Shown here: in pieces, positions 2-33,845 of the stretch
Numbering within the stretch: position 1 is the stretch's first letter
Layout of the letters: the number at the start of each line of letters is the position of its first letter
Source: an uncultured Actinomycetes bacterium
GTDB lineage: Bacteria > Actinomycetota > Actinomycetes > Nanopelagicales > Nanopelagicaceae
Direction: 5' to 3'
Assembly: GCA_903827945.1 (NCBI GenBank)
Contig: CAIKKN010000024.1
Location: forward strand, 1 to 64,000
Length of the DNA stretch: 64,000 nucleotides
Notes under the pieces: generated by a model
Database searches by the model: none
Told to the model about the DNA's origin: nothing
Seen by the model: the letters and a program-made list of their open reading frames with translations, nothing else
Program-made: the position numbers and the translations under genes

Positions 2-114
2 GGTCACGAGTTCCAGTGTTTAGCCCCGGCTTACTGGACGGCAACCCTCCACCACGGTGGGGTGCTCCGGGTGAAGACCAGGCCGACTGCAAAGTGCAGT
101 GGCAAGCGTGGGCC
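2..114 (+). promoter_or_regulatory. SAM-IV riboswitch
   Basis: This is an S-adenosylmethionine-binding leader RNA of the SAM-IV class, which is typical of actinobacteria. The SAM-I-like core is visible: GGTCACGAGT at the 5' side, a GGCAACCCTCC segment near 42-52, and GGGGTGCTCCGGGTGAAGACC closing the GGTC/GACC stem near 59-79. It is followed by the 3' extension with a TGCA-AAG-TGCA hairpin (88-98) and a GGCAAGCGTGGGCC tail. It lies just upstream of metY and metX and should repress them when SAM is plentiful. The window starts at its first base, so a few bases of the outer stem and the promoter may be cut off. Confidence 0.88.
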
Positions 115-30614: not shown

Positions 30615-32534
30615 TTAACTCAGGGTTATGACCACCACGGTGCCACGTTTAACCTGGGTTCCCACTTTGGGAGAGATGCCAGTTACTTTCTTGACTTTCT
30701 TGCTCCCCAATTTCTTGACGCTTACCTTGAGTTGCAAGCTTTCCAGAGATGTCTTGGCGCTTGCTTCGGTAAGTGAAAATAGGTTAGGAATGAAGACGAA
30801 CTCAGTTCCTTGCGAGATGACCAACATAACTGTTGATCCTTTATTTGCAGTCGGCAGAGTATCTGGCGTCTGGGCTATGACTGCGCCTGCAGGAATTGAT
30901 TCGCTGTAAGCATAAGAACTCTTCACTGAAAAACCTGCATCAGTTAATTCATTTGTAGCTTGGTCTGAACTCTTACCTACATATGAAACAAGTGCAATCT
31001 GTTCTACGCCTTTGCTGGTGATTAGATCAACAATCGAATTACGCCGCACCTTCGTGCCAGCCGATGGATTTCCATCGACAATCATCCCGAGTGCAACTTT
31101 GGAATCAAAAGCTTCACTGATATTTCCAACTTTTAGCCCTGCATTAATTATTGCTGCCGTTGCGGCATCCTGGGTCAGGCCAGAGATCGACGGAATTGAA
31201 ATTCTTTCTTTGCCTTTGGAGAGAATAAGGTGGACGGTTCCAGCCTTTGGTAAGTGCCCGCCGCCACCGGGGATTGATGTCATAACAAGACCGGAATCGA
31301 CATCTTCGCTGAAGTCTTGCGAGGCTATATCCGCATTCAAACCAAGAGCGCTAATTTGAGATTTTGCATCTTTAACAGTGAGGCCGACAAGTGAAGGAAT
31401 CGCGATTTGTGATCCAGGGCCTAAGAATTGATACCAGCCACCTGTTCCAAGAGCCAATACGAGAATAACTGCGATAATTCGGTTTCTTTTCACGCGCTTA
31501 GAGACCCGCCTTCTAATTTCAGCCGTTTGAGATATTTCCGGAGTTTTTATTGGTTGAGTCAAGCTCTTTACTCGCTCAATCACTTGTGTGCCAATTCGAA
31601 TTTCACCACGCGGAACTTTGCTTTTTTTCACTGCTCGCGTTGGAGGAACTGGAAGGTCTAATTCAAGACTTAGTTGTTTCTTCTGAGGATCTATTTCTTC
31701 CTGAATTGTTCTGAGTGCATTAAGAAGTTCACGCGCATCTCGATACCTATGATCTGGATTGGAAGACGTGGCTTTTGTAATAACGGCATCGATATTTTCG
31801 GGGATTTCAGGTTTTAAAGAGCGGGCACTGGGGACTCGATCATTCACGTGCATGTAAGCGATCTGAATAGGACTTTCACCCTCAAAAGGCTTTCGGCCGG
31901 TGAGCAATTCAAAGAGAACAATTCCAAGAGCATAAACATCGCTTCGAGCGTCGCAGATTCCTCGTTGCACTTGTTCTGGGGATAAATATGAAACGCTTCC
32001 AAGTACGACACTGGATTCTGCCGTTTGGGTGGCCCCCAATTGCGCGCCGCGAGCCAAGCCAAAATCAGCAATCTTTACTCTGCCGTCTTTAGAAATCAGG
32101 ATATTTTCTGGCTTGATATCTCTATGAATTATTCCAAGAGAATGTGCCTCTGCCAGCGCACTCACAACTGGGATTATGTAGCGGAGAACTTCCTCGACGG
32201 AGAGCGAGCCTCTTTCAAATAAATAATCCCGAAGCGTATTTCCGTCGATATATTCCATGACGATAAAAACTGCAGGGGACCCTCCTTCATTCCAACCTTG
32301 ATCTTGAATTGCGACAACGTTTGGATGGCTTAGGGCAGCTGTGGCCTTCGCTTCTTTAATAAAACGACTAACAAATTCTTCATCGTTTGCTAAATGCGGA
32401 TGCATAATCTTCACGGCGACTAAGCGATCAAGGCGCTGATCCATCGCCACGTAGATGGAGGCCATGCCTCCAGCTGCTATGAGTTTCTCAAGCTGATAGC
32501 GACCGTCGATTAATTCTCCAGTTAGGTCAGACAC
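30615..32534 (-). CDS. pknB: PASTA-domain Ser/Thr protein kinase (PknB-like)
   Basis: This membrane receptor kinase links cell-wall state to growth and division. The cytoplasmic kinase domain (about 10-275) has GGMASIYVAMD, VAVKIMH, IIHRDIKPENILI and IADFGLARG. A juxtamembrane basic region is followed by one transmembrane helix (RIIAVILVLALGTGGWYQF near 352). Four extracellular PASTA repeats follow, beginning with IPSLVGLTVKDAKSQISALG, and these usually bind muropeptides. At 639 residues it is full length. The usual pknA, rodA, pbpA and phosphatase neighbours are absent; nfo follows. Confidence 0.93.
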   Translation of the reverse strand: MSDLTGELIDGRYQLEKLIAAGGMASIYVAMDQRLDRLVAVKIMHPHLANDEEFVSRFIKEAKATAALSHPNVVAIQDQGWNEGGSPAVFIVMEYIDGNTLRDYLFERGSLSVEEVLRYIIPVVSALAEAHSLGIIHRDIKPENILISKDGRVKIADFGLARGAQLGATQTAESSVVLGSVSYLSPEQVQRGICDARSDVYALGIVLFELLTGRKPFEGESPIQIAYMHVNDRVPSARSLKPEIPENIDAVITKATSSNPDHRYRDARELLNALRTIQEEIDPQKKQLSLELDLPVPPTRAVKKSKVPRGEIRIGTQVIERVKSLTQPIKTPEISQTAEIRRRVSKRVKRNRIIAVILVLALGTGGWYQFLGPGSQIAIPSLVGLTVKDAKSQISALGLNADIASQDFSEDVDSGLVMTSIPGGGGHLPKAGTVHLILSKGKERISIPSISGLTQDAATAAIINAGLKVGNISEAFDSKVALGMIVDGNPSAGTKVRRNSIVDLITSKGVEQIALVSYVGKSSDQATNELTDAGFSVKSSYAYSESIPAGAVIAQTPDTLPTANKGSTVMLVISQGTEFVFIPNLFSLTEASAKTSLESLQLKVSVKKLGSKKVKKVTGISPKVGTQVKRGTVVVITLS

Positions 32535-32563: not shown

Positions 32564-33112
32564 TCACGCGCTTGGCGCGCCATCAAGGCAGTAATCCGCA
32601 GCACCCATACTGCCTTCCAAGAGAAAATGCTTGGCTTGTTCTGTCTGCCATCTCTTCATGAAAGGTTGAACTTGCTCGCCATCACGCGCAATTACTCGCT
32701 CAAGTCCACGTTCTTCTTCAACGTCAATCCATATGCTCAATGAAATCTCGCCTCGTATGGCTCTTTGTCCGCTTCCGACGCCTTCGAGGATGAGAACCTC
32801 CGGCGTTGAAATAATTCGTGAGCTGCCATATGAATTGGAATTCCAATCAAAGACAGGGTGTTCAATCGTCGGCAAACTTGTCTGTCGAATGATTTTCCCA
32901 AGGTTTTCGGTCAGCGTTTCGGTGAGCGCATCACCCCATCCGTTATAGAGGTCATCCATATGAATAATCTCAACAGAGGTGGAGGAGCGCTCCACCTCTT
33001 CTCGAAGGGTCTGTGCCAAAGTGGTTTTGCCCGAGCCAGCAGGACCATCGATGGTCAAAATCTTTGGAGATGCTTGTACGCCGGCAATCGCTTTAAGAAG
33101 AGTGGAGATCAA
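32564..33112 (-). CDS. P-loop small-molecule kinase (uridine-kinase-like)
   Basis: This 182-residue cytoplasmic protein has a Walker A motif TIDGPAGSGKTTLAQTL, a second-strand IIHMDDLYNGWG, and VLILEGVGSGQRA near the Walker B position. These are marks of the uridine kinase-like P-loop family, which phosphorylates nucleosides, pantothenate or other small alcohols. TTG 33112 with AAGGAAG upstream is the best start; it overlaps the end of the PnuT-like gene by 20 bases. Co-transcription behind a TPP riboswitch suggests it may act on the imported thiamine or an analogue, but no residue proves this. Confidence 0.75.
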   Translation of the reverse strand: MISTLLKAIAGVQASPKILTIDGPAGSGKTTLAQTLREEVERSSTSVEIIHMDDLYNGWGDALTETLTENLGKIIRQTSLPTIEHPVFDWNSNSYGSSRIISTPEVLILEGVGSGQRAIRGEISLSIWIDVEEERGLERVIARDGEQVQPFMKRWQTEQAKHFLLEGSMGAADYCLDGAPSA

Positions 33113-33707
33113 GTTTCTTTGCTTCCTTAAGCCAGCGCACCCAGCCGCCAACTGCCAACCCTACAAAGATTAGATAGAGGATTCCTGTTAAGTAGAGCTT
33201 TCCATGGAAAAATTGATATGTGTAAACACCATCAACGACAAACCACAAGGGCCAAGCTTCATACTTCTCTCTCACCATCAATACTTGAGCTACGCAACTT
33301 CCTGCAAAACCAAATGCATCAGTGAGTGATGCAGCTGCGCCGATATGGACAAGCGCTGGATAAAGAGCGAACCACAAGGCAAGAAATCCAAGGCCCCACT
33401 GCAACTTAGCTTTTTTGGATAATCGCGCAGGTTTCGCCCCACTCTTTCCCCATCCAAACCAACCCCAGAAACCTCCTGCAATGAATACAAATTGAAGTGC
33501 GCCACTCGCGTAATATTTTTGTTCGAAGAATAGAATCGCGTACAACAAGCTTGAGATATTCCACCACGGCCACGTTGAACGTGGTCCAAAAATTCCAAGC
33601 ACTACGCCGACCACAGAGGTTGCAAAAGCGACTAACTCCAAGATCGAAAGATCGTATTTCCAAGCGGTAAATACCGTTGTCATGAGAAGAGAATTAAGTG
33701 TGTGCAT
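33093..33707 (-). CDS. pnuT: PnuC-family transporter, predicted thiamine transporter PnuT
   Basis: This membrane protein of about 204 residues has seven or eight transmembrane helices of the PnuC family, with motifs WWNISSLLYAILFFEQKYYASGALQ and the C-terminal FFHGKLYLTGILYLIFV. Family members carry nicotinamide riboside, riboflavin or thiamine. A TPP riboswitch directly upstream assigns this one to thiamine (PnuT), an assignment based on regulation. ATG 33707 (MHTLNSLL) lies 6 bases after the riboswitch-embedded AAAGGGG ribosome-binding site; the longer frame would start inside the riboswitch. Confidence 0.83.
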   Translation of the reverse strand: MHTLNSLLMTTVFTAWKYDLSILELVAFATSVVGVVLGIFGPRSTWPWWNISSLLYAILFFEQKYYASGALQFVFIAGGFWGWFGWGKSGAKPARLSKKAKLQWGLGFLALWFALYPALVHIGAAASLTDAFGFAGSCVAQVLMVREKYEAWPLWFVVDGVYTYQFFHGKLYLTGILYLIFVGLAVGGWVRWLKEAKKLDLHSS

Positions 33708-33710
33708 GTG

Positions 33711-33797
33711 TAACCCCTTTCCAATTCGCATTACCGAACTGGTCCTACGGTCGACCTGAACGTCAGGTCCTCTCAGCCAACAAAACGGCTCCCGTTA
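33711..33797 (-). promoter_or_regulatory. TPP riboswitch (THI element)
   Basis: Read on the minus strand, the element has a TAAC/GTTA outer stem, ACGGGAGCC, the conserved GGCTGAGAGG, a GACCTGA/TCAGGTC hairpin, and the second arm CCAGTTCG-GTAATG-CGAATTGG. It ends with AAAGGGG, which is also the ribosome-binding site of pnuT. Binding of thiamine pyrophosphate would close the outer stem and hide this site, so control is probably at translation. The crtYc gene lies divergently on the other side. Confidence 0.85.
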
Positions 33798-33845
33798 TTG
33801 CCAACCTTACCATCGTGTCAGCACATCAGATGAGAGTATTGGCTT

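Follow-up and report, generated by a model that had tools for sequence, protein, structure and literature searches.

The minus strand of the window, the stretch of 64,000 nucleotides analyzed here, carries a unit made up of a riboswitch, a gene for a PnuC/PnuT-family transporter and an overlapping gene for a P-loop kinase. We consider it likely that this unit is a thiamine salvage operon under feedback by thiamine pyrophosphate (TPP), in which the kinase makes thiamine monophosphate (TMP) from thiamine and ThiL completes TPP. When TPP is scarce, the riboswitch would permit expression of pnuT and, by way of the overlapping start, of the kinase; thiamine would diffuse into the cell through PnuT; the P-loop kinase would convert it to TMP and so trap it; and ThiL, encoded elsewhere, would convert TMP to TPP, which would shut the riboswitch. 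The kinase would then represent a non-orthologous type of thiamine kinase, with a fold unrelated to those of ThiK and thiamine pyrophosphokinase (TPK). The function predicted for it is that of EC 2.7.1.89, and genomic context supports the prediction.

The TPP riboswitch aptamer (THI element) occupies positions 33702-33805 (minus strand). It precedes pnuT (33093-33707, minus strand), which encodes a facilitator predicted to take up thiamine, and the kinase gene (32564-33112, minus strand), which encodes the predicted thiamine kinase. The open reading frame of pnuT is open to 33731 and looks longer than the gene because of an ATG inside the aptamer; translation probably begins at the ATG at 33707, preceded by GGAAAGGGG (33714-33722, minus strand), which we read directly from the sequence as the probable pnuT ribosome-binding site on the aptamer's 3' edge. 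Most of the aligned leaders carry a purine run at their 3' end, and GGAAAGGGG at the aptamer edge is likely to be the control point for translation. The open reading frame of the kinase opens at a TTG at 33151, and its likely start is the TTG at 33112, behind AAGGAAG, from which the gene overlaps the 3' end of pnuT by 20 bases. A gene for a PknB-like Ser/Thr kinase with PASTA repeats (30615-32534, minus strand; assigned from its open reading frame and from Pfam matches of the orthologue in genus g8) follows on the same strand after 29 bases. This gene is a constant neighbor that marks the locus in relatives, and it probably has no share in the thiamine function.

A sequence-only reading of the window had proposed a TPP riboswitch, a PnuC-family gene and an overlapping uridine-kinase-like gene, and all three were confirmed, by RF00059 and covariation, by PF04973 and by P-loop profiles, respectively. 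It had named an Rfam search as a check on the riboswitch; run over the whole genome, this search matched RF00059 along its full length (positions 1-105 of 105) with 34.2 bits and an E-value of 3.6e-5. Because this score lies below the Rfam gathering score of 54.3, a default Rfam scan of the window misses the aptamer, and detection needed a low-threshold search together with covariation tests. In an alignment of 37 leaders from orthologous loci, pairing holds in 97.7% of helix cells, 10 of the 21 pairs carry compensatory changes on both sides, and none of 500 shuffles reached the pairing or covariation score; the GCTGAGAGG and CGGTAATGCG cores are invariant in this alignment. Our own model built from these leaders scores the window aptamer at 98.2 bits, with the window sequence itself included in the model. 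The same model also detects TPP elements before thiO in genus g8, before thiC in two genomes of genus g3 and before pnuT in family f34, none of which was used in building it. Comparison of the leaders thus confirms that the aptamer match is not due to chance. No other credible TPP element occurs in the whole genome, and the leader is predicted to bind TPP and to control expression. A strong SAM-IV riboswitch match (107.5 bits) lies at the start of the window (2-114, plus strand).

The transporter is a clear member of PF04973 (Pfam, E 4e-36) and scores 62.4 bits against TIGR01528, for which the cut-off is 42.45. With a TPP aptamer upstream, and in the genome of a thiamine auxotroph, it is predicted to transport thiamine. 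A second PnuC paralogue is encoded in the same genome on contig C6 (L319, 1920-2603, minus strand), behind an FMN riboswitch (L319, 2690-2828, minus strand; 96.1 bits), and is a candidate PnuX-like riboflavin transporter. One PnuC gene stands under a TPP aptamer and the other under an FMN riboswitch, and each paralogue therefore bears its own vitamin signal. A PnuX-like riboflavin transporter is reported for acI-A4 by Kang et al. (2017; PMC5301498).

Pfam matches of the PRK/AAA P-loop type place the kinase in the uridine kinase/PRK group of P-loop kinases, and among NCBIfam models it lies far from every named one. The best of these is PRK06547 (NF005115; E 2.5e-28), against which the kinase scores 98.6 bits versus a curated cut-off of 173, and it is therefore a distant relative of PRK06547. 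An AlphaFold (AF2) model with a mean pLDDT of 92.2 shows the fold of uridine-cytidine kinases (UCKs), and a Foldseek search with this model returned 1RZ3 (E 4.3e-11) and human UCK2 (E 1.2e-10). In 28 relatives, the P-loop, HxDxxYxGW, the tryptophan of a DW motif, EGVG and RxxxRD vary little or not at all; the tryptophans conserved in the family are W72, W103 and W141. The kinase thus shares fold and motifs with Udk, UCK2 and 1RZ3 of Bacillus, but it scores only 42.1 bits against the uridine kinase model TIGR00235 (cut-off 220.3), which places it outside Udk, and the site corresponding to the His/Tyr that reads the base in UCKs varies among the 28 family members (N, G, M, E, S). The fold of ThiK is that of choline kinase/aminoglycoside phosphotransferase (APH), unlike the P-loop UCK fold seen here, and no APH match occurs among the 25 Pfam families listed for the kinase. 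The TPK catalytic domain PF04263, by which a TPK/ThiN enzyme would be recognized, is likewise absent from its listed Pfam matches. No relatives of the kinase were found on viral contigs.

The source assembly is 95% complete and encodes ThiL (197.9 bits, over the curated cut-off); profile searches found no TPK, no ThiE-family match over the cut-off and no ThiC in it. The same pattern extends across the order, for which we surveyed 121 genomes of acI/Nanopelagicales; 100 of these reach a completeness of 90% or more with contamination of 5% or less. The kinase and ThiL, which converts TMP to TPP, were each found in 118 of the 121; TPK is found in none, the TMP synthase ThiE exceeds its cut-off in five, and ThiC occurs in two. 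Since ThiE is found in only five genomes and TPK in none, ThiL mostly stands without a known TMP source, in a survey that covered TPK, ThiE and ThiC. The kinase, encoded in a TPP-controlled unit, is a natural candidate to fill this gap. It is present in all 116 genomes that lack ThiE, and the three genomes without it all belong to genus g8 and all have ThiE, a complementarity that counts as about one evolutionary event rather than three because g8 is a single genus.

This pattern narrows the role of the kinase, which the sequence-only reading had tentatively assigned to thiamine or a precursor such as HMP, as a replacement for known thiamine kinases or pyrophosphokinases. Thiamine is the most likely substrate. 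A role as HMP kinase is unlikely, because ThiE, which would use HMP phosphates and is needed to couple HMP pyrophosphate to thiazole phosphate, is missing from this genome and from 116 of the 121. Replacement of a pyrophosphokinase is also unlikely given the presence of ThiL; what is missing is therefore a plain thiamine kinase, for the step from thiamine to TMP. The predicted sequence from thiamine to TMP to TPP is then the same as in salvage by ThiK and ThiL in E. coli. A complete known pyrophosphorylation route elsewhere in the genome had been named as evidence that would count against a new kinase; searches for TPK and ThiE found no such route, and its last enzyme, ThiL, is present.

The kinase is closely linked to the transporter. 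By coordinates, pnuT lies directly upstream of the kinase gene on the same strand in 110 of the 118 kinase genomes of the order; a PnuT orthologue was found in 110 genomes and never without the kinase. The gaps between the matches of these pairs range from -56 to +100 bases, and in 46 of the 110 the matches overlap. In named public genomes, the pair is found at 67 of 80 loci, including that of acI strain IMCC26103 (L213). The pnuT-kinase loci in several public records titled as Bifidobacterium breve or as a Streptomyces griseus MAG (L184, L211, L220, L222, L228) are typical of acI, and the titles of these records look wrong. Together, the riboswitch, the linkage and the pathway pattern give good support to the earlier proposal of thiamine uptake with metabolic trapping by the kinase.

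In the genomes that we read, the unit sits between lycopene cyclase/phytoene synthase genes and the pknB-like gene, which follows either the kinase gene or, in g8, thiG. In g8, the stretch from the carotenoid genes to pknB instead holds thiE, a TPP aptamer, thiO, thiS and thiG (L173, L174, L175), with a thiS product of 66 amino acids that ends in GG and with thiG directly before pknB. Thiazole synthesis and thiamine salvage therefore share one chromosomal place in different genera. ThiC was not found in g8, so HMP import may be needed there. The unit also persists away from this place: in the four genomes of family f34 (L133-L136; one is JAOATY010000035.1), the TPP aptamer, pnuT and kinase are kept together and have as neighbors a tRNA, an SDR-like gene and a long kgd-like gene, the SDR-like gene separating the unit from the kgd-like one (both SDR and Kgd were assigned by eye). 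Kgd is a TPP-dependent 2-oxoglutarate decarboxylase. Because the unit is kept amid different neighbors, the pairing does not merely reflect shared surroundings.

Eight of the 118 genomes hold the kinase in its place before pknB without PnuT. The Rfam model detected no TPP element at the kinase locus in seven of these eight, and our own model detected none in any of the eight. Two of them (G007 and G043, genus g3) carry a TPP-controlled thiC-thiM-thiE-thiD operon (L176, 4371-9700; L177), followed by a gene for an MFS transporter that may carry a thiamine-related compound. The other six (G058, G075, G080, G113, G088 and G108; loci L078, L079, L082, L083, L084 and L085) have the kinase and ThiL but neither PnuT nor ThiE, and no thiamine importer was found in them. 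The sequence-only reading had held that a kinase found unlinked to pnuT in relatives would, together with a complete known route, tell against a thiamine role; the outcome is mixed, since such unlinked kinases do exist, but the six genomes without ThiE would still need a thiamine kinase, together with another importer.

These eight genomes are also a ground for supposing that the kinase acts on an unrelated substrate, such as a nucleoside, a sugar or another small molecule, and is simply a fixed neighbor before which pnuT was inserted, the translational overlap being incidental. The wider family, whose homologues occur in 275 of the 395 genomes surveyed from the class, is consistent with this, as it lies mostly without thiamine neighbors. 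We nevertheless regard an unrelated substrate as improbable: the riboswitch, pnuT and kinase persist together in f34 among different neighbors, in the sole genus lacking the kinase, thiE and thiazole genes stand in its place, and ThiL would otherwise lack a known TMP source in 116 genomes.

Classical PnuC members carry nicotinamide riboside (NR), and the transporter exceeds the TIGR01528 cut-off; further, human Nrk1, of the same superfamily, matches the kinase profile weakly (E 3.4e-5). The unit could on these grounds be read as an NR system in which PnuC imports NR and an NRK-type kinase makes NMN. This is very improbable, however, because a TPP aptamer forms the leader, thiO-thiS-thiG and thiE take the place of the unit in g8, and the PnuC paralogue behind the FMN riboswitch shows that PnuC relatives serve other vitamins in these lineages. 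Slightly less probable still is a kinase acting on a thiamine precursor (HMP or the thiazole alcohol) or a thiamine breakdown product, to which retention of the kinase in the two genomes with thiC-thiM-thiE-thiD and the position of two homologues beside an NMT1/THI5-like protein, from a family that includes pyrimidine-binding proteins, might point, but 116 of the 121 genomes lack the ThiE needed to join phosphorylated HMP or thiazole, and these compounds are usually phosphorylated by ThiD and ThiM.

Beyond acI and f34, the context of the kinase changes. At about 95 homologue loci outside this group, thiamine genes are almost never neighbors, and the wider family may therefore have another substrate or be an unlinked salvage kinase. 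In two other actinobacterial families, a related kinase lies beside genes for an NMT1/THI5-like binding protein and an ABC transporter (L163, 3883-7342; L169, 3914-7152; both minus strand, from reading of the neighborhoods), and no TPP element was detected at either locus. This arrangement suggests another pairing of kinase and transporter, perhaps for thiamine or its pyrimidine. With the exception of these two loci, neighborhood does not link the kinase family to thiamine in the class generally: an SsuC-like permease near the kinase at L168 resembles part of a sulfonate cluster, and an ABC cluster at L139 matched families of the aminophosphonate type rather than thiamine families. In a tree of the family, the kinases of acI and f34, with a few from f25 and f33, fall on one side of a branch with 99% SH-aLRT support, and function may therefore differ between the two sides. 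We hold it possible, if doubtful, that the kinase founds a non-orthologous thiamine kinase family within the uridine kinase/PRK superfamily whose actinobacterial relatives are unlinked salvage kinases that give TMP to ThiL. If this is true, these relatives would, as TMP suppliers, fill a gap in actinobacterial vitamin B1 salvage.

PnuT operons of the Bacteroides type join a PnuC-family thiamine facilitator to a thiamine pyrophosphokinase (TPK/ThiN, Tnr3) under thiamine control. The unit described here resembles them in tying a facilitator to a phosphorylating trap enzyme under thiamine control, but the partner is a uridine-kinase-like P-loop kinase, TPK is absent from all 121 genomes surveyed in the order, and ThiL must finish TPP. 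In acI, Kang et al. (2017; PMC5301498) reported a THI element with a proposed PnuT in four strains and described nearly all enzymes of thiamine de novo synthesis and salvage as missing. That locus has the same riboswitch and transporter, and strain IMCC26103 of that study has the pnuT-kinase pair; the available portions of the paper make no mention of the adjoining kinase assigned here. A survey of vitamin pathways in the gut microbiome takes ThiK, ThiM and ThiN as the signature enzymes of B1 salvage (PMC6593275). Our literature search, in which subscription journals lay mostly outside coverage, found no paper that gives the kinase a role in thiamine metabolism. The riboswitch and PnuT of acI are thus already published; what is new here is the assignment of the kinase, the pattern of ThiL, ThiE and TPK behind it, and the swap at the locus.

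Members of acI are among the most abundant bacteria of lakes and are thiamine auxotrophs, in which the route from thiamine to TPP is an annotation gap, with ThiL lacking a TMP source. If true, the assignment of the kinase would close this gap, give a testable new family of thiamine kinases and correct metabolic models that list thiamine salvage as absent. Trapping by the kinase would further explain how these streamlined cells accumulate scarce vitamin B1 through a facilitator.
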